Positions 4,421 to 57,472 of a stretch of 64,000 nt of DNA are shown in pieces. The notes beneath the pieces were generated by a model. The model searched no databases. It had not been told where the DNA came from and saw only the letters and a program-made list of their open reading frames with translations. This DNA is from Cohnella algarum (lineage in GTDB: Bacteria; Bacillota; Bacilli; Paenibacillales; Paenibacillaceae). The first letter of the stretch is position 1. The number at the start of each line of letters is the position of its first letter. Where the stretch lies: contig NZ_JAFHKM010000002.1 in NCBI RefSeq assembly GCF_016937515.1, forward strand, positions 1,235,001-1,299,000, read 5' to 3'. A program made the position numbers and the translations under genes.

Positions 4421-4598
4421 GTGGATTTTGTCCAACCCAAAATGGCTTTTTTGCCGATTTCGCAAGCTTCAGTGGATTTTGTCCAATCTGGCGAGGCCTT
4501 TTGGGCAATTCCGTCCAAATTCCAAGTTCCCCGTTGGATAAAATCCACTGTAGACCGGGATTTCCCCGCTTTCCGCTCCGCCGATTGGATAAAATCCA
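4421..4598. repeat. Palindrome element P1, copy A (interrupted by the IS)
   Basis: Four short palindromes start at 4421, 4472, 4533 and 4584: two of type GTGGATTTTGTCCAA, then two of type TTGGATAAAATCCA. The steps are 51, 61 and 51 bp. The spacers match the other copies (GGCGAGGCCTTTT after box 2, CTGTAGACCG after box 3). The right edge of box 4 is cut by the IS at 4598; the rest of the element resumes at 6095. No protein is claimed for it. Confidence 0.85.
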
Positions 4599-6094
4599 CT
4601 ATACATGCAATAAACCTAACGCGAAATCCAGTACCGAGTTGGTTTGTCATTATTATTTCCTTTGACCTAATATTTTACATGTCGTTTGGATGGGGAGAGG
4701 AAAAACGAGCAACAGGGGAGGAATCGCAGAAAAAATTGCCAAAAAAAGGTTTGGATCCAAATGGTTTCGTTACGGGACTAGAATCTTCACAACCTCACGT
4801 TCATTTTTGCCTCTGCCAGGTTGAATCCGAGGGACGGTCTTGGCTTGTTTTCGCTTTTGCCTTCCCCGACTGGTTCGTTCCGTAGGTTTATTCAAGATGG
4901 CGACGAACCGCTTCCACGGGTATTGGCTGTAATGACGCAAATAACGAACAAAGTTAAACAGGGTCAACTTGTTCGGCGTTTGCCGATGCACGAGCTCGCA
5001 CAACAGATAGCTAATGACGCCCAGATACAACTGAGCCCATACGGCATTCGGATCATGGTTGTGAAAGGTGATCGTCGTCAGGTGTTGCTTGATCCACTTA
5101 AAAAACAACTCAATTTGCCATCTGCAGCGATAGACTTCCCCTACGTCCGCGGCGCTAAGATCGAAGCGGTTGGTCAGCAGCCTGTAGGTCCGACCCTTCT
5201 CGTCCTGGAACTCCACCAAGCGAAACGGCCGATGGGTTTTCGTCTTCTTGTCGTAGATCGTGACGGTTGCATCCCGCAGGATCGGCGTGTCGGCCTTCAC
5301 AGGGTGCTCCTGCAATACCGTGAACGTGTTGGTCGTTTTAAGTCGGGCCACAAAGGTAATGCCGTCTTTCGCCCATGCACAAAAGCGCGTGTAATTCACG
5401 TAGCCCCGGTCCAAAATGTAGGTCAGATCCTTGCGTGTCACGAGCTCATCAACCGCCATCTGATCAGAGACCCCAACCGTGGACAAGACGATCCGGTCCG
5501 GAAAGGGATTTTCTTCGTCCAAGCATAGCAGCCGAGTGTGCATCTTCACCCCCTTGGTTCGATCCTGATAAAAGGCCCAATCGCCAAACACAAACGGAAG
5601 AAGGAAACTGCTTGAATCGATAGGGGCCAGTTTACCCAAATGACCAACTCCCTTGGCGCCTGGCATCAGTTGTTGCAGTCGGGAGGCTAACCGTTCGAAG
5701 ATGCACTGCAAGTAATCCAAGGGCAGTTTCGCCAGCTTTCGATTCAGCGTCGAGGCATGAACGGAAGACACGCCAGCCAGTTTTTGAAGATAAGGATCTG
5801 TAGTCAAATGGAGCTGAATATCTTCCAAGGTCTTTCGCTGCTGAATTTCCCCCTCGATACATAACAGGATGGCCGCGGTGATCGTCAATTTCTTCGCATA
5901 GCGATCCGCCAAAGGAAGTTTTCCCATATGGAGCTTAAGTTCTTTTAAACACTTGCGCATAACCGTTTTTTGGTGTATATTGCCCATGGGTTAGTTCTCC
6001 TTTGTAGGGAAATGGGCAATTTTGTCTGCTTCCTCTACAATAGGAGACTTTTTTTATTTTGGCTAGCTTCATGTCAGGTTTTTTGCATACGTAG
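4599..6094 (-). mobile_element. Complete IS4-family insertion sequence, 1,496 bp
   Basis: The ends are imperfect inverted repeats of about 22 bp: CTATACATGCAATAAACC at 4599, and the complement of CTACGTATGCAAAAAACC ending at 6094. The element is flanked by a 13-bp direct repeat, TGGATAAAATCCA, at 4586-4598 and 6095-6107. IS4-type elements make duplications of about 9-13 bp, so this fits. It carries one transposase gene. The target is the core of box 4 of repeat P1, so the insertion site is itself a palindrome. Confidence 0.88.
4770..5987 (-). CDS. IS4-family transposase
   Basis: A 405-residue DDE transposase with an RNase H-like catalytic core. The likely acidic residues are in PIDSSS (near 142), ILDRGYV (near 210) and YRCRWQIELFFKWIK (near 313). 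The last matches the IS4 signature Y-x2-R-x3-E-x6-K exactly. The ATG at 5987 has GGAG nine bases upstream. The frame is intact and the IS has both ends and a target duplication, so the element may still be active. The basic, Arg/Lys-rich C-terminus is probably DNA binding. Confidence 0.95.
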   Translation of the reverse strand: MGNIHQKTVMRKCLKELKLHMGKLPLADRYAKKLTITAAILLCIEGEIQQRKTLEDIQLHLTTDPYLQKLAGVSSVHASTLNRKLAKLPLDYLQCIFERLASRLQQLMPGAKGVGHLGKLAPIDSSSFLLPFVFGDWAFYQDRTKGVKMHTRLLCLDEENPFPDRIVLSTVGVSDQMAVDELVTRKDLTYILDRGYVNYTRFCAWAKDGITFVARLKTTNTFTVLQEHPVKADTPILRDATVTIYDKKTKTHRPFRLVEFQDEKGRTYRLLTNRFDLSAADVGEVYRCRWQIELFFKWIKQHLTTITFHNHDPNAVWAQLYLGVISYLLCELVHRQTPNKLTLFNFVRYLRHYSQYPWKRFVAILNKPTERTSRGRQKRKQAKTVPRIQPGRGKNEREVVKILVP

Positions 6095-15189: not shown

Positions 15190-15372
15190 ATTGGATTTCG
15201 TCCAACCAAGGCCGGCTTTTTCGCCAGATCCGCCGTCTTCGTTGGATTTTGTCCAATCGGGCAAGGCCTTTTTGGAGATTTTGCCCGGAATCTCCCTCTC
15301 TCGTTGGATAAAATCCACTGTAGACCGAAGTTTTCGCGATTCTCGCTCCGCCGATTGGATAAAATCCAACAT
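15190..15372. repeat. Palindrome element P1, copy B
   Basis: Boxes start at 15190, 15241, 15303 and 15354 (steps 51, 62, 51): TTGGATTTCGTCCAA, TTGGATTTTGTCCAA, TTGGATAAAATCCAC and TTGGATAAAATCCAA. The orientation and spacer motifs are as in the other copies. It lies between the upstream region of the sugar operon and the 3' end of the MMPL gene. Confidence 0.9.
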
Positions 15373-19724: not shown

Positions 19725-20115
19725 GATGAGTCGTCACGACTCAACCGGATCGGCCGCTTGCGTGCGATGGCGGCAAGATGAGTCATTTTTACTCAAATGC
19801 GTATGACTGCGTGCGTTTTGCAGGCCGAGATGAGTCGCTACGACTCAACCGGATCGGCCGCTTGCGTGCGATGGCGGCAAGATGAGTCATTTTTACTCAA
19901 ATGCGTATGACTGCGTGCGTTTTGCAGGCCGAGATGAGTCGTCACGACTCAACCGGGTCGGCCGCTTGCGTGCGATGGCGGCAAGATGAGTCATTTTTAC
20001 TCAAATGCGTATGACTGCGTGCGTTTTGCAGGCCGAGATGAGTCGCTACGACTCAACCGGATCGGCCGCTTGCGTGCGATGGCGGCAAGATGAGTCATTT
20101 TTACTCAAATGCGTA
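19725..20115. repeat. Palindrome array P2: four 104-bp units, eight boxes at 52-bp steps
   Basis: Boxes start at 19727, 19779, 19831, 19883, 19935, 19987, 20039 and 20091, always 52 bp apart. They alternate between TGAGTCGTCACGACTCA (or CT for TC in the loop) and TGAGTCATTTTTACTCA. The 104-bp units are nearly identical. Units 1 and 3 share the TC loop and units 2 and 4 the CT loop, so a 208-bp dimer was probably duplicated. The array lies between the MarR and MFS genes; 19535-19724 shows nothing else I can name. Confidence 0.92.
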
Positions 20116-35147: not shown

Positions 35148-35327
35148 ATTGGATTTCGTCCAACCAAAACCGCTTTTTTTGCGAAGCTCGCCGGCTCCGT
35201 TGGATTTTGTCCAACCAGGCGAGGCCTTTCCGGCGATTTCGGCCTCATTTCAAGTTCTTCGTTGGATAAAATCCACTCTAGACCGAGTTTTCCTCGCTTT
35301 TCGCTCTGTCCGTTGGATATAATCCAA
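35148..35327. repeat. Palindrome element P1, copy C
   Basis: Boxes at 35148, 35199, 35261 and 35312 (steps 51, 62, 51): TTGGATTTCGTCCAA, TTGGATTTTGTCCAA, TTGGATAAAATCCAC, TTGGATATAATCCAA. It sits between the efflux pump and its likely TetR regulator, so it may have entered an old three-gene locus. Confidence 0.9.
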
Positions 35328-45671: not shown

Positions 45672-48124
45672 TCAATTCCGCGTGCCGTCGAGCCTTCTTT
45701 CTTCCCCGAGCGCGACGCTCATCCGGAATTCCTTCGGCGTCATGCCGAACCTTTTTTTGAACAGCGTAATAAAGTAGCTTGCATTGTTGAAGCCGAGGTA
45801 ATCGGCGATTTCCTTCACGCTGAAGCTGCTGCCGAGCAGCATTTCCCGCGCCTTCTCCAGCCGGTACCCGTTAATGTAGTCGCCGACGGAAACGTTCTCG
45901 TATTGCTTAAACAGGCGGCCGACGTAGGCCGAGGACATTTTGAAATTCGACGCGACCGACTGCAGGCTCAAATTGACGTCCAGCGCGTTTTTCTCCACGA
46001 ATTCCTTGATGGCGTCGACGACCACTTTGTTTTTGTCCTCCTTCTGGGCTTCTCTCTCCGCCAGACAGACCTGCTCCAGAAACAACGCGATCTTCTCCTT
46101 CATCCCGGCTAACGTGTCGGAGCGAATGACGCTCGTTCCGAGCGTCTGCATCGCGATCGAGTTGAAATGGCCGGCGAACACGGGCTCGCGAAGCACCTGT
46201 CGGACGACCAGCAAAATTTGTTGGACCGCGAACGTCATATCGTCGTACGGAAAAGCGGAGATCGCGTCAAACCACTTGTCGAGCAGCGCGAGAATCGCCT
46301 TCTCGTCGCGGGCGCGAATGGCCTCGCCGAGCTTTTTTTCCCATTCGACCGGAATCGCAACGTCGCGGCGGGCCATGTTGCCTTCCACGTCCTCCGGCGC
46401 GATGACGGCTCCGGGGCCGTACAGCACGCGGTACATCAGTTGCTGTACCGAGGCGCGGTAAGCGAGGCTGACCGCCCTGAAATCGTTCGCGGGATGGCGA
46501 ACCGCCGCGGAGAACGTTCGGCGATAAAACTGCCGGCAAGTATCGACCGCATCGCCGAGCAACCTCCGCACCGCCTCCGAGTCCGATCCGTCGGCCGACG
46601 TGCGCGCGACGGCGACCAGAAAATCGTTTTTCATATCGAGAACCCGAACCGGAAACGACCGGCCCACCGTTTCTTCGGTAATGTTGCACGCCGCGAACCG
46701 GAACAAATCGTCGCGAACGGACGAGCGGGAGCCCGGCGACGGCGGATCCGGCGTCAGGACGGCCACCGTCCAGCCCCGCCGCGCCCCCTCTTCCTTCGGG
46801 AACAGCCGGGGGAACGCTTTCCGGCACTCCTCCAATTCCTCCTCGGTCAGCGATTCGCTGTCGGCCATCCAGCGCCGCAAATAATAATCGTGCACGATTT
46901 GCTGGTTCCGGTTCTCTTCCTGGCGGGCGAGTCGCAGCTTGTTCAGCGTCAGCTCGTATACGCCGGAAATATAGCTCATCTCGTCTTGCGTCTTGGGCCC
47001 CCCGCTGCCGGGACGAGCGCGCTGCGCTTAAACAGGTCGGTCAGCTTGCGGATCGGCTGGTACAGGCGGTTTGCGACCGCGGCCGAAAGCGCGACGGAAA
47101 TCGCCAACGCGAATCCGATCAAAATAAAGGAAATATCGCGAAAAGACTCCACCCGCCCCATCACGTCGTCATAAGGCAAAACGCTCACGATCGTCCAATC
47201 GTTCACCCCGACGCTCATCTCGGACACGAGGACCTTCTCTCCGTCCATCCGGCTGATTTTGAACATTTCGGACTCCGGCCCGTTTGCGGTTGCCGGGCCG
47301 TTTGCGGACTTCCATTCGCTCGCGAACTTCCATTCCCTTGCGGAGTCCGGCCCGTCTGCGGACTTCGCTTCGTCCGCGGAATCCGCCCGTCCCTCGGTCT
47401 CCCCGGCCATCGGCGCGGCCTCGCCGCGATAGGTCAGCGCCTCCCCGTTCCGATCCAGCACGACGATTCCGCCGCCATGCCCTCCAAGGTTGTTCAGATT
47501 GGAAATATTGTCGAACACCCACTCCGGCCGGATATTGACGACGACGGCATTCGGAACCGCGCCGTTCGTCGGGTGGTTTTCGAGGACGAAAAAAGAGAAC
47601 AAATCCACGCTCTCGTTCCGACCGTCCGTCTTCATCGGAATGAGCCTTCCGCCGGTCGGACGCCCGGATTCCCGCAGGACGCGCAGCGTCATCTCCTCCA
47701 GTTCCTTCAAATGCGAGCGGGACCACGCTCCCGAGCCTCCAATGTACATTCGCTCCGCGACGCCGCTGTACACGGCGATGGAATCGACGAAGGAGGTGGA
47801 ATCGGCGACCGTATCGAGCATCCGCATCGTTTGGAATTTCGTGAAGGGATCCGGTTCTTTTGCGTTTTTCAAATAGACGATGCTTTGGTCGAAGCTCATC
47901 ATGATCGCGATATTTTGAACGATTTCATGCAAATAATTGATGTTGTATTTGATTTGGGACAACACTTTCTCGTTGGCTTCCTTCTGCGTCTCCAGGACGA
48001 TGTTTTTGGAGACTGCGTAATAAGCGACGGAGAAAATGACCAGCAGCCCGACGAACGACAGGTTGAAATACAGCACGATGCGCTGCAAATATTTGCGGCT
48101 TTTCAGCAGCCGGATGATGCCCAC
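45672..48124 (-). CDS. Membrane sensor/AraC-type regulator (frameshifted)
   Basis: About 817 residues if one base is restored. Order: membrane helix near residue 25-45, extracellular cache-like sensor (about 50-320), helix (about 330-355), a short HAMP-like segment LYQPIRKLTDLF, a long helical linker, and an AraC DNA-binding domain at the C-terminus (two helix-turn-helix units, QSVASNFKMSSAYVGRLFK and VKEIADYLGFNNASYFITLF). The frame shifts at C6 46998-47003: the upstream part ends GGPRRKTR, while the next frame gives GPKTQDEMSYISG, matching family layout. Start chosen at GTG 48124, nine bases after GGGGGG. It likely controls the neighbouring enzyme and importer. Confidence 0.85.
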
Positions 48125-48155
48125 CGGAGGAAGCCCCCCTTTCTTATGTAGAACT

Positions 48156-48184
48156 ATCATTTATGGAATGCGCTTTCATGTCAA
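48156..48184 (-). promoter_or_regulatory. Promoter of the sensor/AraC gene with cre in its spacer
   Basis: TTGACA (48179-48184), 17 bases, AATGAT (48156-48161) on the minus strand. The spacer contains GGAATGCGCTTTCA on the plus strand (48165-48178), i.e. TGAAAGCGCATTCC, a good cre match. CcpA bound here would block RNA polymerase. The -10 also rules out the ATG at 48160 as a start. Confidence 0.7.
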
Positions 48185-48279: not shown

Positions 48280-48513
48280 CTTGGAGTTTGTCCGATCAAA
48301 GCCAGCTTTTTGCTAACTGCGCGGTCCCCCTGATTGGATTTTGTCCAATCTGAAACCGGCTTTTAAGCTAGTCCTGCCGCCCTCGTTGGATTTTGTCCAC
48401 TCAGGCGAGGCCTTTTCGGCGATTTCGTCCGAAAAACCCGATTTTCGTTGGATAAAATCCACTGTAGACGGAGGTTTCCGTGTTTCTCGCTTCGGTCGTT
48501 GGACAAAATCCAA
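48280..48513. repeat. Palindrome element P1, copy D (five boxes)
   Basis: Boxes at 48280, 48333, 48385, 48447 and 48498 (steps 53, 52, 62, 51). The first is worn (TTGGAGTTTGTCCGA); the last, TTGGACAAAATCCAA, is the exact complement of the standard forward box. Spacers carry the same GGCGAGGCCTTTT and CTGTAGAC motifs. One extra box compared with the other copies, at the left. Confidence 0.88.
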
Positions 48514-48545
48514 CGTAGGCTTGTCCTGCATGCATGCGGAAGGAC

Positions 48546-48725
48546 GAGATGAGTCGCAATGACTCATTTGAGTGCGGCTATATGTGTTTGGCGGGCTGAG
48601 GTGAGTCACTACGACTCAACTGGATCGACAGCGTTCATGCGGAGGGGTAAGATGAGTCATGAGGACTCATTTGAGCGCGGCTACATGGGGATGGCGGGTC
48701 GAGATGAGTCGATACGACTCAACTG
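48546..48725. repeat. Palindrome array P2, second locus (four boxes)
   Basis: Boxes at 48550, 48602, 48653 and 48705 (steps 52, 51, 52): TGAGTCGCAATGACTCA, TGAGTCACTACGACTCA, TGAGTCATGAGGACTCA and TGAGTCGATACGACTCA. Related to the array at 19725-20115 but more diverged. It continues directly from P1 copy D with the same spacing. Confidence 0.88.
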
Positions 48726-48792: not shown

Positions 48793-48828
48793 TAAAAAAA
48801 TAAAGACGCGCCCTCGCTGGCGCATCTT
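48793..48828 (-). terminator. Terminator of the second polysaccharide locus
   Basis: AAGATGCGCC and GGCGCGTCTT pair on the minus strand (one G-T pair), followed by TATTTTTTT. Confidence 0.88.
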
Positions 48829-48843
48829 TGGCCTTGCAAACGA

Positions 48844-50730
48844 TTATAAGGGCAGCCGGTCGCTTGGCGCGAGCGGAAGCGTCGCTTCCGGCGATAATCC
48901 GCGGCTCGCTTCGCCGGCCGTTTCGCCGGGGACCCGTCTGGCCGTCACTCGGCTCCCGTTCCCCTCTTCCGTGACCATGACCGTCGGCGGCCGCTCCGCC
49001 TTCCCGCCGATCGCGAACGAGAAGAGGAACGCGGCTTTGCCGAGTGCGCGAAAATCGATCGTCCGCCGCTCGCCCGCATGGATAACCAAATCCAGGCCGC
49101 ACGTTCCTCCCTCCCGGACGATTTCCCAGCGCCAATCTTTCCGTTCCCGGCTTTTCTCCGGATTTACCCGAGCCGCTGCATCTTTCCCGTCGGATACGTC
49201 TCCCCCGACCACTGCGTCTTGCCCGTCCTTTGCGTCTCTCCCGGCCGAAACATCTTCCCCGGCCGTTGCCGCATGCCGGATCGACGCATCCTTCTCCCCG
49301 AAAGCCGCGTACAAAATTTCGAACCGCAGCTTGAGGCCGTCAACGGTCGCGTGCGCGATCCGCCCGGACGTTTCGAAGCCGACGCCGTCCAGCGCCCCGC
49401 CGAATTCGAAGCGGAACCGAAAATCCGAGGCCCGAATCGAACCGTCGATCCGGTCGAGGTTCGGGTGAGTGTCACCGCCGTTGGTGACGAACCTCGCCCC
49501 GAGCAGCCAAAAGTCCCGCTCCGCCGACGCGCTCAGCACGGCCGAACTGTAATCGTACCCGTCATGCAGGCAGCGCATTTGCAAATAAACGGGCTCGTTC
49601 CCGTTCGCGAAATAGGCGACCATCCCGCGCGTCTGATTCCACATGATCTCTTCGCTGAACGTTCCGACCGCGTATCGCGGCGCGATTTGCGTGACGGCCC
49701 GCTTCACGTAGCCCGTCTCCGCATTGCGATAATAGGTCGTCTCCACGACCCGCTCCTCCGGCCGGACGAACATGTCCAAATAAGGCTCCGGACATTCGCA
49801 CCCGATGCCGTACCATTCGGCGCTGTACTCCAGCTCGTCTTCGGCAAGGAGGAGCAGCCTGTTCCCCGAAGCCGCCTGCAGGAAAGACTTGACCGGTTTC
49901 GTCAGCAGCGTGCTGTAGCTGCGGCTGTGCGGCCCGGCCCACTGGCCGGTCGCCGGGTGAAAATGCTGGGCAATCATGCGCCAGGCGGCGTCCAGCAGGT
50001 CGGAGGCGATTTCCTTGGCCCGCAGCTGTACGGAAAATGCGCGGATTTTGGACAGTTCCACGATGGCGACCATCGTGTACGTCGGGCTGTTGAATTCCTG
50101 AAACGTCCCGAGCTCCTCCGTATGCCGCTTCAGCTTTTCCAGCCGTTGCAGGCCATACTCGGCAAACTCCTTCCGGCCGTAGAGCTCCCCTGCGATCAAC
50201 GTGACAAGCGCGCCCATAATCGCGATATTCGTGTAATGGGGACCCACGTCGCGCTTGATAATCGCTTCGCAGGCGCAGCTTGCCGCTTCCCGGATTCGTT
50301 CGTTCAGCTCATCCGGCAGCCTGCCGCCGTGCCGCAAAGCCGCCAGCACGAGCTCCTTGCCGCAAAAATCGGCCCAGTTCCAATCCGGAGGCGCCATCCG
50401 CGCCAGCGGCTCCTCGTAAAACCACGGCCAGATGCCGTACGTATCGTTGCCCGGGTCTCGATCCTGCAGGGCGATGACGCGCTCGATGATCGCGGAGGCA
50501 CGTTCCTCGTACGCGGAAATCCCCGTATTCAGCAGGCCGAGGGCGTACGCCAGCGACGGATAGGTCGGGTGCACCGTCGGATGCGTCTCCTTCGTCAGCG
50601 TCGTGTGATACCCGGGACTGCTGAACGGCAGCCGCAGCATGCCCGCATCCGGATCGAAGCTGCTTTCCTGAGACGCGATTTTTTTCAACAGCAGCGCTTC
50701 GTGGTCGAGCGCATTTGCCTTATTGCCCAT
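48844..50730 (-). CDS. Large protein of a sugar locus, perhaps a polysaccharide lyase or hydrolase
   Basis: About 628 residues, which I cannot place in a named family. The first about 350 are helical with Trp/Tyr-rich loops (GIWPWFYEEPLARMAPPDWN), as in alpha/alpha-toroid enzymes such as heparinase-type lyases; the rest is beta-rich. A short repeated linker (GxDVSAGRDAKDGQDAVVGG) near residue 505-540 separates two beta parts. No signal peptide is visible, so it would be cytosolic. Start chosen at ATG 50730 (MGNKAN), GAGG nine bases upstream. It is the last gene of the operon with binding protein and permeases; this placement suggests it acts on the imported sugar. Confidence 0.7.
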   Translation of the reverse strand: MGNKANALDHEALLLKKIASQESSFDPDAGMLRLPFSSPGYHTTLTKETHPTVHPTYPSLAYALGLLNTGISAYEERASAIIERVIALQDRDPGNDTYGIWPWFYEEPLARMAPPDWNWADFCGKELVLAALRHGGRLPDELNERIREAASCACEAIIKRDVGPHYTNIAIMGALVTLIAGELYGRKEFAEYGLQRLEKLKRHTEELGTFQEFNSPTYTMVAIVELSKIRAFSVQLRAKEIASDLLDAAWRMIAQHFHPATGQWAGPHSRSYSTLLTKPVKSFLQAASGNRLLLLAEDELEYSAEWYGIGCECPEPYLDMFVRPEERVVETTYYRNAETGYVKRAVTQIAPRYAVGTFSEEIMWNQTRGMVAYFANGNEPVYLQMRCLHDGYDYSSAVLSASAERDFWLLGARFVTNGGDTHPNLDRIDGSIRASDFRFRFEFGGALDGVGFETSGRIAHATVDGLKLRFEILYAAFGEKDASIRHAATAGEDVSAGRDAKDGQDAVVGGDVSDGKDAAARVNPEKSRERKDWRWEIVREGGTCGLDLVIHAGERRTIDFRALGKAAFLFSFAIGGKAERPPTVMVTEEGNGSRVTARRVPGETAGEASRGLSPEATLPLAPSDRLPL

Positions 50731-50818
50731 TTTTCCGATCCTCGCTTTCCGTTTCCGAACTTCGTTCATTTGCCGTCACGGTCATTTCCGCGCTTTCCGT
50801 AATCCGCTTCAATTGCGA

Positions 50819-54819: not shown

Positions 54820-57150
54820 TCACGGCTCCTCCCCCTGTCCCGCCGCGGTCTGCGTCCGGGCCGACCAGTCCCGGTACTCCATCGGCGTCATGCCCGCATA
54901 CTTTTTGAACGTCCGCAAAAAACTGCGCGCATTCATGTATCCGACCGCTTCGGCGATCTCGTTGACCTTCATGTCCTTGCCCGACAGCAGTCTCTGCGCC
55001 TCGCGGATGCGGATTTCGATCAAATAATCGATGAAATTGCTGCCGGTATGCTCCTTGAACTGCTTGCTGATATACGTGGGACTCAACTGGAATTCGTGCG
55101 CGAGCCGGTCGAGGGACAAATCGCTTTCCTGAAAATGCTCCCCGATATACCGAAGCATCCGTTCGACGGCGGCGTTTTTTCCTTTTTGGCTGCGCCGCTC
55201 CTCCACTTGGCCGGCAAGCGATTCCAGGTAGGATACGACGATCCCGCTGACGTTCGCCAAGCTTCCGCTGCGGTTGATCCGTTCGTAAACGCCGTTGAGA
55301 CGGCCCGCCGAAGCGCCGATTTCGACCCCCAGGGAGCTTGCGGCCTGCGCCGGTTTCATGACAAGGTCGAAAGCGAGCTGGCGAATGAGCTCCGGGGGCA
55401 AATTGCTGTCCGCGGCTTCCTTCAGCGTCTCCTCCACGCAGGCTTTCATTTTGGCGGCATCCGCCTGCTTCAGCGCGTCCGCAACGCGGTCCGCCATCCG
55501 GGTCAGCCGGTAGTAATCCTGGCTGTCGAGCGGCTGAAGATCCTCGATCGAAATGACCGAGTGCCGGCCGAATACCATTTTATATTGCAGCGCTTTTTGC
55601 GACTCGTCGTACGACTTCGGAATGTCTTTCATTTCTTTGCAGCACCGGCCGACGCCGACGGTCACGACAAGGCCGAACTGCCCCCGCATCACGTCGAGAA
55701 GCTGCTCCAAAATCGCGAGCGCCCGCAGGTGGTTCTGCTCGGCGTCCCCTTCGGCGAAGCTGAACAGCACCGCCGCTCTCCCCTGGCCCAAATCGATGGC
55801 GACGCCCGCGTTTTCGGAATTGATCAGCTCCTCCGCCACGTTGCAGAACGCATACGTATACAGCGTTTCGTCCCGTGCCTGGAAATCGGCCCCTTCCTTG
55901 CCGATCTCGGCCGTGCATACGAGGAAACGCTCCGGAAACAGCCGAATGCCCACGGATTCCAAATGGTGCCGGACAGACGGATAATCCGTCCGATACCCGG
56001 CCAGCATATCCATCATCATCCGCCATTTCAGCACCGGCTTCGAATCCCGCATATGCTGCTCCAGATTGGACCGGTCCTGCACCAGTTGGTCGAACACCTT
56101 TTCCAGATAGGACAGCCCGGATCCCGGCCGCCCCTGCGGAATCCCCGCGCGGAACGACCCCGACATTTTGCCGACGAGCCGGTCGAGCGGCTTGAACGTC
56201 CACCGATTCACGTAAAAAAGGGCGAGCAAGGCGAGCGCGACCATGCCGGCGGCGAACGCCATCAGCAAGTTCCGCGTCACCTGCACCGGCTTGTAAATTT
56301 GCGACTCCGGCATGATGCTGATGAGCCGCCACCCCATATAGACGGAGTCGTGATAAAATACCGATTGCCGGATTCCGTCCACCTCGCCCGCGAAATAACC
56401 GCTGCCCGTTTTGGACAACGCCGTCCGGATGTAGGGGACCTCCTTCAGATTGCGGTAAATTTGCGTTTTGTCGTCGTGCGTAACGACGTTGCCTTCCTTA
56501 TCGATGATGAACAGGTGGCCAACCTTGTTGTCCCGGAAAACCTCCTTGATCATGTCGTACAGCACGTCTTCCTTGATGTTGACGGCGACCATTCCCTTGC
56601 GGTAGCCCGGACTGCTCAGGGTCGGGTAGGAGCGCACGAGCGTGACGACGTCCTGATTTTCGGTGCCGTCCCATACCTTGTGGGTCGTCAGCCATTTTAC
56701 ATACTCGGGCATGTTCTCGTAATCGTCGAGCCAGTTGTCCGCCAACGCGTCGTCGTCCTTGAAATAGGCTTTATCCGTTAAAATGTCACCGCTTACAGAA
56801 GAATAAACGAAAATCGATGCGAATTGGGGATTGGTCGTGATGAATTTTTTCAGCTTCGTGCTCAGGGCGTAAAAGTTCTCGTATCGCTGGGAATCCTCCA
56901 GGTAACTGTCCAGCATGAAATAAACGAACTCAAGCTCCTCGGTCAGCGTCAGCAAATCCTTCTCCGACTGGCGGAACGCGACTTCGATCTTTTCGTCGAC
57001 TTGCTTCAACAGGGCCAGGTTCGTGTTCCGCAAATCGCTTTCCAGCTTGCCGACCGTTCCGACGTAAGAAAGCCAGAAGGTCAGCGCGATGACGAGCAGG
57101 AAAACGCCTCCATAGATTAACATCGCTTTCGTCGAGATGCTGGCCTTCAT
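54820..57150 (-). CDS. Membrane sensor/AraC-type regulator
   Basis: A 776-residue regulator, intact. Helix near 9-30, extracellular cache-like sensor (about 35-290), second helix (about 295-320), HAMP-like segment, a long linker and a C-terminal AraC domain (LDRLAHEFQLSPTYISKQFK and VNEIAEAVGYMNARSFLRTF). The family senses sugars or related cues outside and turns on the linked transport operon inside. It is the upstream neighbour of the third importer and has its own promoter. ATG at 57150. Confidence 0.92.
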   Translation of the reverse strand: MKASISTKAMLIYGGVFLLVIALTFWLSYVGTVGKLESDLRNTNLALLKQVDEKIEVAFRQSEKDLLTLTEELEFVYFMLDSYLEDSQRYENFYALSTKLKKFITTNPQFASIFVYSSVSGDILTDKAYFKDDDALADNWLDDYENMPEYVKWLTTHKVWDGTENQDVVTLVRSYPTLSSPGYRKGMVAVNIKEDVLYDMIKEVFRDNKVGHLFIIDKEGNVVTHDDKTQIYRNLKEVPYIRTALSKTGSGYFAGEVDGIRQSVFYHDSVYMGWRLISIMPESQIYKPVQVTRNLLMAFAAGMVALALLALFYVNRWTFKPLDRLVGKMSGSFRAGIPQGRPGSGLSYLEKVFDQLVQDRSNLEQHMRDSKPVLKWRMMMDMLAGYRTDYPSVRHHLESVGIRLFPERFLVCTAEIGKEGADFQARDETLYTYAFCNVAEELINSENAGVAIDLGQGRAAVLFSFAEGDAEQNHLRALAILEQLLDVMRGQFGLVVTVGVGRCCKEMKDIPKSYDESQKALQYKMVFGRHSVISIEDLQPLDSQDYYRLTRMADRVADALKQADAAKMKACVEETLKEAADSNLPPELIRQLAFDLVMKPAQAASSLGVEIGASAGRLNGVYERINRSGSLANVSGIVVSYLESLAGQVEERRSQKGKNAAVERMLRYIGEHFQESDLSLDRLAHEFQLSPTYISKQFKEHTGSNFIDYLIEIRIREAQRLLSGKDMKVNEIAEAVGYMNARSFLRTFKKYAGMTPMEYRDWSARTQTAAGQGEEP

Positions 57151-57209: not shown

Positions 57210-57472
57210 CGCCGCCTTATTGAGCGGGAAGGAGCCGGATCGGTCGGATGACGCTGGGCCAGCCGCGTATCCGACCCGCGGCTCGCCAATCGTCGGACGC
57301 GCCGAGCCGTCCCCCACATGCGAAGCTTGGTTGGATTTTGTCCATTCAAAAACGGCTTTACCGCCGTCCCCTAAAACTTTCCCGAACTCTAAAAATAAAT
57401 TTGCCGGCACTCCCACGATGGTTCCAATCCCGCAGCTCCGCTTATGATTCGAGCTCGATGCCTCTACCGGCT
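57210..57472. other. Gene-free stretch with one P1 box
   Basis: GTTGGATTTTGTCCATT at 57330-57346, followed by CAAAAACGGCTTTACCGCC, matches the start of P1 (compare CAACCAAAACCGCTTTTTT in copy C). The remaining three boxes are absent. No gene is visible. Confidence 0.6.

Follow-up and report, generated by a model that had tools for sequence, protein, structure and literature searches.

Two palindromic repeat families in a composite array of Cohnella algarum, one of them oriented with the inferred direction of replication

Results

Nine palindromes from two families lie at one intergenic locus

We analysed a 64,000-nucleotide stretch of the Cohnella algarum genome (hereafter the window; positions 1235001-1299000 of a 6.19 Mb contig), with genes predicted by our own gene-calling script. 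Between two minus-strand reading frames, nine palindromes occupy positions 48281-48721 with steps of 51-53 bp, except for one of 62. All nine boxes are present, as stated in the original prediction of nine regularly spaced palindromes from two families. Boxes of the first family (P1) have the arms TTGGA-N5-TCCAA and those of the second (P2) TGAGT-N7-ACTCA. Taking the first arm base as the start, we place the P1 boxes at 48281, 48334, 48386, 48448, and 48499 and the P2 boxes at 48550, 48602, 48653, and 48705, giving start-to-start steps of 53, 52, 62, 51, 51, 52, 51, and 52. The P2 starts had been placed correctly and the P1 starts one base early; the predicted step of 52 across the P1-P2 junction holds by box centres and is 51 by starts. 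The usual P1 element does not include the first P1 box, TTGGAGTTTGTCCGA, which is degenerate. The features of the locus are:

46976-48160, minus strand: flanking reading frame of 394 aa that starts about 120 bp away from the array, with no Pfam or NCBIfam match at E 0.001
48281-48295, plus strand: fifth P1-like box of degenerate sequence, 53 bp upstream of the tetrad; five boxes also occur in elements L029 and L113
48334-48513, plus strand: P1 element of four boxes, two of TTGGATTTTGTCCAA type followed by two in reverse orientation, steps 52, 62, and 51; box-independent spacer-model match at 48401-48447 (E 3.1e-11)
48550-48721, plus strand: P2 array of four TGAGT-N7-ACTCA boxes, 51-52 bp steps, higher-order unit of 103 bp
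48802-48829, minus strand: intrinsic-terminator-like hairpin with T tail, between the array and the gene at 48844-50769; the consensus scan gave 2 in the region against 1.7 expected from shuffles
48844-50769, minus strand: flanking gene of 641 aa, 3' end toward the array; no Pfam or NCBIfam match at E 0.001

The P1 steps of 51 and 62 differ by 11 bp, about one helical turn, and so fit sites in phase on one side of the DNA, as had been proposed. The reading frame at 45672-46979 (part of an AraC-type regulator) overlaps the family-less 46976-48160 by four bases in a different frame, both on the minus strand. By eye, 54820-57150 looks like an undivided gene of similar layout, and the overlapping pair may be a split or frameshifted gene.

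P1 is an interspersed intergenic tetrad whose boxes are conserved above their spacers

P1 is an interspersed intergenic family. The usual element has two forward and two reversed boxes with steps of 51, 62, and 51; among the 57 contexts examined, 46 have four boxes, nine have three, and two have five. The P1 core TGGATTTTRTCCA has 143 + 129 exact matches in the C. algarum genome (control, 0/0), and a P1 element used as a BLAST query gave at least 48 matches there, with 40 of the 124 first-look candidates scored. Pairs of P1 boxes, and likewise of P2 boxes, were found repeatedly at fixed spacing, so chance does not account for them. Because both boxes occur genome-wide at the same spacing, neither random scatter of box distances nor a single occurrence of the boxes, the outcomes named as fatal to the original prediction, was seen. 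The exact P1 pair was found in one of 295 family genomes, C. algarum itself, and was absent from a viral collection.

Since boxes that are to be judged should not also select the elements, we modelled the 47-nt central spacer by sequence alone, using 46 P1 elements, and searched the C. algarum genome with this model. With 150 of the 6336 first-look candidates scored, the search yielded at least 80 matches at E of 0.1 or lower; the 70 with E below 0.001 were used as the P1 set and ten weaker ones were dropped. Three of the 70 elements lie within a predicted gene. Other P1 tetrads in the window are:

4421-4599, plus strand: P1 tetrad, spacer-model match
15191-15369, plus strand: P1 tetrad, BLAST and spacer-model match
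35149-35327, plus strand: P1 tetrad, BLAST and spacer-model match

Lone P1-like boxes without a tetrad lie at window positions 57331 and 6094, both in gaps between predicted genes.

In the 70 spacer-found elements, the identity of the box arms to their box-specific consensus is 0.949, 0.971, 0.987, and 0.951 for the four boxes. We also aligned 46 elements, leaving aside the 11 of 57 contexts that lacked four in-register boxes; between these elements, which had been picked by their boxes, pairwise identity averages 0.91-0.96 within boxes and 0.65-0.68 within spacers. The central spacer measures 46-48 nt in all 46 (47 in 42), although its sequence varies. Such conservation of the arms over the spacers would fit a putative protein that recognises the palindromes in phase, one of the two possibilities raised at the outset. 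By eye, the alignment contains sequence subfamilies, such as the elements with GTCATCTTCG ahead of box 2.

The only pairs above 0.92 identity among the 46 elements are three copies adjoining rRNA operons, and P1 boxes therefore look maintained in place. These near-identical elements (L235, L236, and L237, at about 920, 1815, and 1725 kb) lie just past the 5S end of rRNA operon copies. Rfam places 5S and 23S rRNA beside the 920 kb copy, and the same flank recurs at 99% at 1815 and 1725 kb. The identity among the three ends at box 1. We considered them as recently mobile copies and rejected this, as homogenisation of the rRNA operons explains the identity. The 1725 kb copy is separated from its operon by an insert of about 2 kb with two frames that we take to be IS21-type.

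P1 orientation follows the inferred fork and copies are enriched near the origin

dnaA lies at 1706711, and GC skew changes sign in the same region. We derived replication direction from these two landmarks, with the terminus assumed to lie at 4.80 Mb, opposite dnaA. Of the 70 P1 elements, 68 are oriented with the fork so inferred (Fisher p 2e-17); the exceptions are those at 1554673 and 4035796. Elements lie on the plus strand up to 1656408 and on the minus strand from 1725516, flipping around dnaA. Agreement extends to 15/15 newly fetched elements outside the training set of the spacer model and to nine of the ten weaker matches. An artefact of composition was rejected as the source of the orientation: alignment of the whole element and the central spacer alone, which are not fully independent, give the same strand in 55/55. 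P1 is also enriched near the origin: 28 of 70 elements lie no more than 0.5 Mb from dnaA, where 11.3 would be expected (p 1.6e-6), as do 26 of 67 once the three rRNA-linked copies are removed.

Because genes also mostly run with the fork, we checked the elements for which genes set no such direction. All 24 elements between convergent or divergent genes follow the fork, as do three of the four whose neighbours both run against it. Overall, the gene on the expected side has its 3' end toward P1 in 59 of 70 cases. The intergenic regions are codirectional for 44 elements, convergent for 19, divergent for 5, and unknown for 2. Relative to intergenic bases (41,669 codirectional, 8,747 convergent, and 16,321 divergent, counted in the window and 23 stretches of one other Cohnella genome, G012), P1 over-uses convergent regions and under-uses divergent ones. 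A terminator-like hairpin stands between gene and P1 in 18 of 47 intervals, against 1.8 in shuffles.

Of the P2 arrays oriented in the same genome, 23 of 26 agree with the fork and 3 disagree; two more could not be oriented. Orientation was mixed in the G012 family, the one family tested in another genome, and in other Cohnella the polarity of P2 arrays shows no clear match to local GC skew. Polarity as a general property of such repeats is thus not borne out so far. Titles and abstracts on Cohnella and Paenibacillus repeats, on REP and convergent genes, on 52-nt repeats, and on replichore-oriented palindromic repeats gave no evident report of such polarity; most subscription journals lie outside this coverage.

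P2 belongs to a wider set of palindromes on a 51-52-bp ruler

The pattern TGAGTCN6ACTCA has 229 forward and 208 reverse matches in the C. algarum genome (control, 0/0); since it is nearly symmetric, these are largely the same sites. P2 forms tandem arrays with steps of 51-52 bp and up to 23 boxes when mismatches are allowed. The number of exact boxes ranges from 2 to 20 in 28 arrays, with four or more in 23, and no array overlaps a predicted gene (0/28). Another P2 array in the window is:

19727-20107, plus strand: P2 array of eight boxes, 52 bp steps, two box types alternating

In P2-type arrays of C. algarum and other Cohnella, TGAGT and ACTCA are kept at the same step while the middle bases and spacers vary; this conservation is biased upward, since the boxes themselves served to find the arrays. 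Within an array the spacers are repeated between units rather than being unique, which does not fit CRISPR. Among the 295 family genomes, three contain an exact pair of P2 boxes at 50-53 bp, and all three are from the genus of C. algarum. Three consecutive P2-type boxes, sought in one genome each from 84,980 species, gave 19 stretches, all in three Cohnella species (records of C. algarum itself may be excluded from this collection), and the viral collection gave four contigs with one P2-like pair apiece.

It had been suggested that the two palindromes follow one ruler. This holds at the junction in 48281-48721 but at few of the nine composites, where the nearest P1-P2 centre distances are 52, 62, 85, 101, 109, 113, 128, 198, and 208; we rejected a shared ruler as a general rule. 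The scatter implies that the ruler is internal to each family and usually does not run across the P1-P2 junction.

Other genomes of the genus, in stretches chosen regardless of repeats, carry tandem arrays of different palindromes with a 51-bp step. Among Tandem Repeats Finder (TRF) rows of period at least 30 labelled intergenic, from the window together with stretches of six genomes of the genus, 13 have a period of 51, one of 52, three of 102-104, and one of 48; three further rows of 51 were labelled coding by our gene caller. The window rows at P2 arrays have periods of 52, 103, and 104. In G012 alone, six or more distinct palindromes form 51-bp tandem arrays of their own:

L159, 18104-18396: palindrome array
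L165, 16161-16421: palindrome array
L169, 19445-19624: palindrome array
L171, 5504-5718: palindrome array
L177, 1473-1642: palindrome array
L178, 1670-2452: palindrome array

In Cohnella sp. AR92 (L083, 5205-5390), a third palindrome, GAATTAGTCTCATGTGAGACTAATTC, forms a 51-bp array a short distance ahead of a P2-type array. Of 17 tandem units, 9 have a dyad that surpasses shuffles (p below 0.05), by a test that is weak because the P2 unit itself does not pass.

Covariation does not favour an RNA of evenly spaced hairpins

The other possibility raised at the outset, an RNA of evenly spaced hairpins, fared poorly. In the consensus fold of the 46 P1 elements, computed for both strands, box 1 pairs with box 4 and box 2 with box 3. 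The covariation term is -0.37 on one strand and 0 on the other, and on each strand two pairs show any double change. Single-strand folds of eight stretches of the 48281-48721 locus reach z scores of -1.4 to -6.2 against shuffles, and most of them pair boxes with other boxes. The near absence of covariation, together with the terminator-like hairpin ahead of P1 in 18 of 47 intervals, argues against RNA.

Pairing within the P2 box varies by position. Pairs at positions 6/12 are near expectation (81 vs. 76.1 in C. algarum; 45 vs. 39.6 in other species), whereas those at 7/11 are above it in C. algarum (82 vs. 60.2) and below it elsewhere (18 vs. 39.0). At 8/10, Watson-Crick pairs fall below expectation (31 vs. 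51.4 and 3 vs. 37.4, respectively), with G-T about as many (33 and 38). Positions -1/+1 are below expectation in both sets (17 vs. 57.2; 15 vs. 39.7). Nothing in the whole window reached an Rfam gathering score; the best sub-threshold hit is a microRNA model at 26.3 bits against 97.

Discussion

A class of "constant size, variable sequence" tandem repeats of 52 nt, with no explained function, has been described in Bacillus (Subirana and Messeguer 2021, PMC8161180). There, the class is called particularly abundant in Paenibacillus, after an earlier paper of the same authors, and a protein polymerising on the repeats, or small RNAs, are proposed; Cohnella, too, is one of the Paenibacillaceae. 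As described there, the unit is 51-53 nt, and P2 has steps of 51-52. Many unrelated sequences share the one size, as in our TRF rows of mostly 51, and arrays are species-specific, mostly of 4-10 units with few longer, much like those found here. Short signals and their reverse often lie within one unit, which resembles our boxes, and the repeats are non-coding, as are all but 3 of 70 P1 elements and all 28 P2 arrays. The published class has at least four direct tandem units, as P2 has, whereas P1 alone is inverted with a 62-bp middle step. In the main text of PMC8161180 the words Cohnella, palindrom-, orientation, and convergent are absent and replication appears once, about repeats of 20-21 nt; polarity, origin enrichment, and a comparison of boxes with spacers were not found in the text examined. 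Hence, P2 fits the published class and P1 is a variant of it. As a member of that unexplained class the array is ordinary; the P1 tetrad is more, through its box constraint, inverted design, fork polarity, and origin enrichment, of which the inverted 2+2 design and the replication polarity go beyond the original prediction.

Both families share features with other repeats. REP/BIME elements of enterobacteria are palindromes that lie between genes, frequently at 3' ends, and are grouped in direct or inverted order; intergenic location and such groups are common to both, whereas the array families here have a strict 51-52 bp ruler, replication polarity, and no link to a Y1 transposase that we could find. 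Specifically, the C. algarum genome has three PF01797 matches (two nearly full length), and exact P1 or P2 boxes are absent from their loci of 3.1-3.4 kb. BOX and other Gram-positive interspersed repeats are modular and intergenic, with a variable number of middle units. In these properties our families resemble them; to our knowledge, BOX-type repeats have no 51-52 bp ruler. Ter/Tus, the RTP fork-arrest sites, and FtsK-orienting motifs also have an orientation set by replication and are terminus-ward or short single motifs, whereas P1 is a long tetrad enriched near the origin.

Our best explanation is that two interspersed intergenic repeat families, joined here in one array, serve as in-phase sites on double-stranded DNA for a protein that dimerises, oligomerises, and has a role in the chromosome. 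One protein dimer would occupy the dyad formed by each box. With 51-52 bp close to five helical turns and 62 close to six, successive dimers would sit on roughly one face and could oligomerise along the DNA. The fork orientation and origin enrichment of the P1 tetrad suggest a chromosome role, which would be in nucleoid organisation or interaction with the fork rather than in control of neighbouring genes. We put the chances of this explanation no higher than even, mainly because polarity did not recur in the G012 family and is unclear in P2 of other species. Many different palindromes on one ruler, at least six in G012, also fit poorly with one sequence-specific protein.

The families could instead be selfish or passively spread repeats, whose single-stranded copies were inserted with the fork and amplified by slippage, and whose intergenic location reflects survival only; we consider this unlikely, yet more credible than any other rival. 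HUH transposases insert single-stranded copies with the fork, and lagging-strand insertion plus gene dosage could yield both fork polarity and origin enrichment. The under-use of divergent regions (5 of 68 classified P1 elements), the variable number of P2 boxes (2 to 20 exact boxes in 28 arrays), and a polarity confined, in the material tested, to the dispersed families of one genome are all in keeping with such spread. It accounts less well for boxes that, after long residence, are far more conserved than their spacers. We found no target-site duplication of the MITE type beyond the conserved ends in 46 P1 elements (old ones could have decayed), no exact P1 or P2 box lies within about 1.5 kb of the two longer Y1 transposase genes, and the closest copies adjoin rRNA operons, where homogenisation can explain their likeness.

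Two readings centred on transcription are less probable still. A transcribed hairpin-array RNA, acting as sRNA or protein sponge, would agree with the transcription of 52-nt repeats reported for B. coagulans in two papers (PMC8161180; PMC8625621), with the locus folds, with the P2 7/11 pairs of C. algarum, and with the dyads of 9/17 units in the weak test. We judge it improbable given the P1 covariation terms and few double changes, the P2 deficits at 7/11 in other species, at -1/+1 in both sets, and in Watson-Crick pairs at 8/10, the lack of an Rfam family at gathering score in the window, an orientation that tracks replication where genes set no direction, and the terminator-like hairpin between gene and element. 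A transcription road-block or back-up terminator at gene 3' ends, slightly more improbable again, would explain the 59 of 70 gene 3' ends that face the element and the preference for convergent over divergent regions. Gene and fork direction are, however, confounded in most of these cases; elsewhere the fork wins (24/24 and 3/4), and P1 boxes lack a T tail. We therefore prefer phased double-stranded DNA sites, and rank the fork-coupled selfish repeat second.

It is conceivable, if on balance doubtful, that P1 represents a novel type of chromosome address element, in which putative phased protein sites form a tetrad that is enriched near the origin, oriented with the fork, and kept by selection at about 70 loci of one chromosome. 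Such an element would offer the first functional handle on the 52-nt repeats of Firmicutes. With boxes conserved against their spacers, 68 of 70 copies oriented with the inferred fork, and copies clustered near the origin, P1 makes the puzzle of the 52-nt repeats testable. It raises the questions of which protein would bind the boxes and whether flipping one element alters replication or nucleoid structure.
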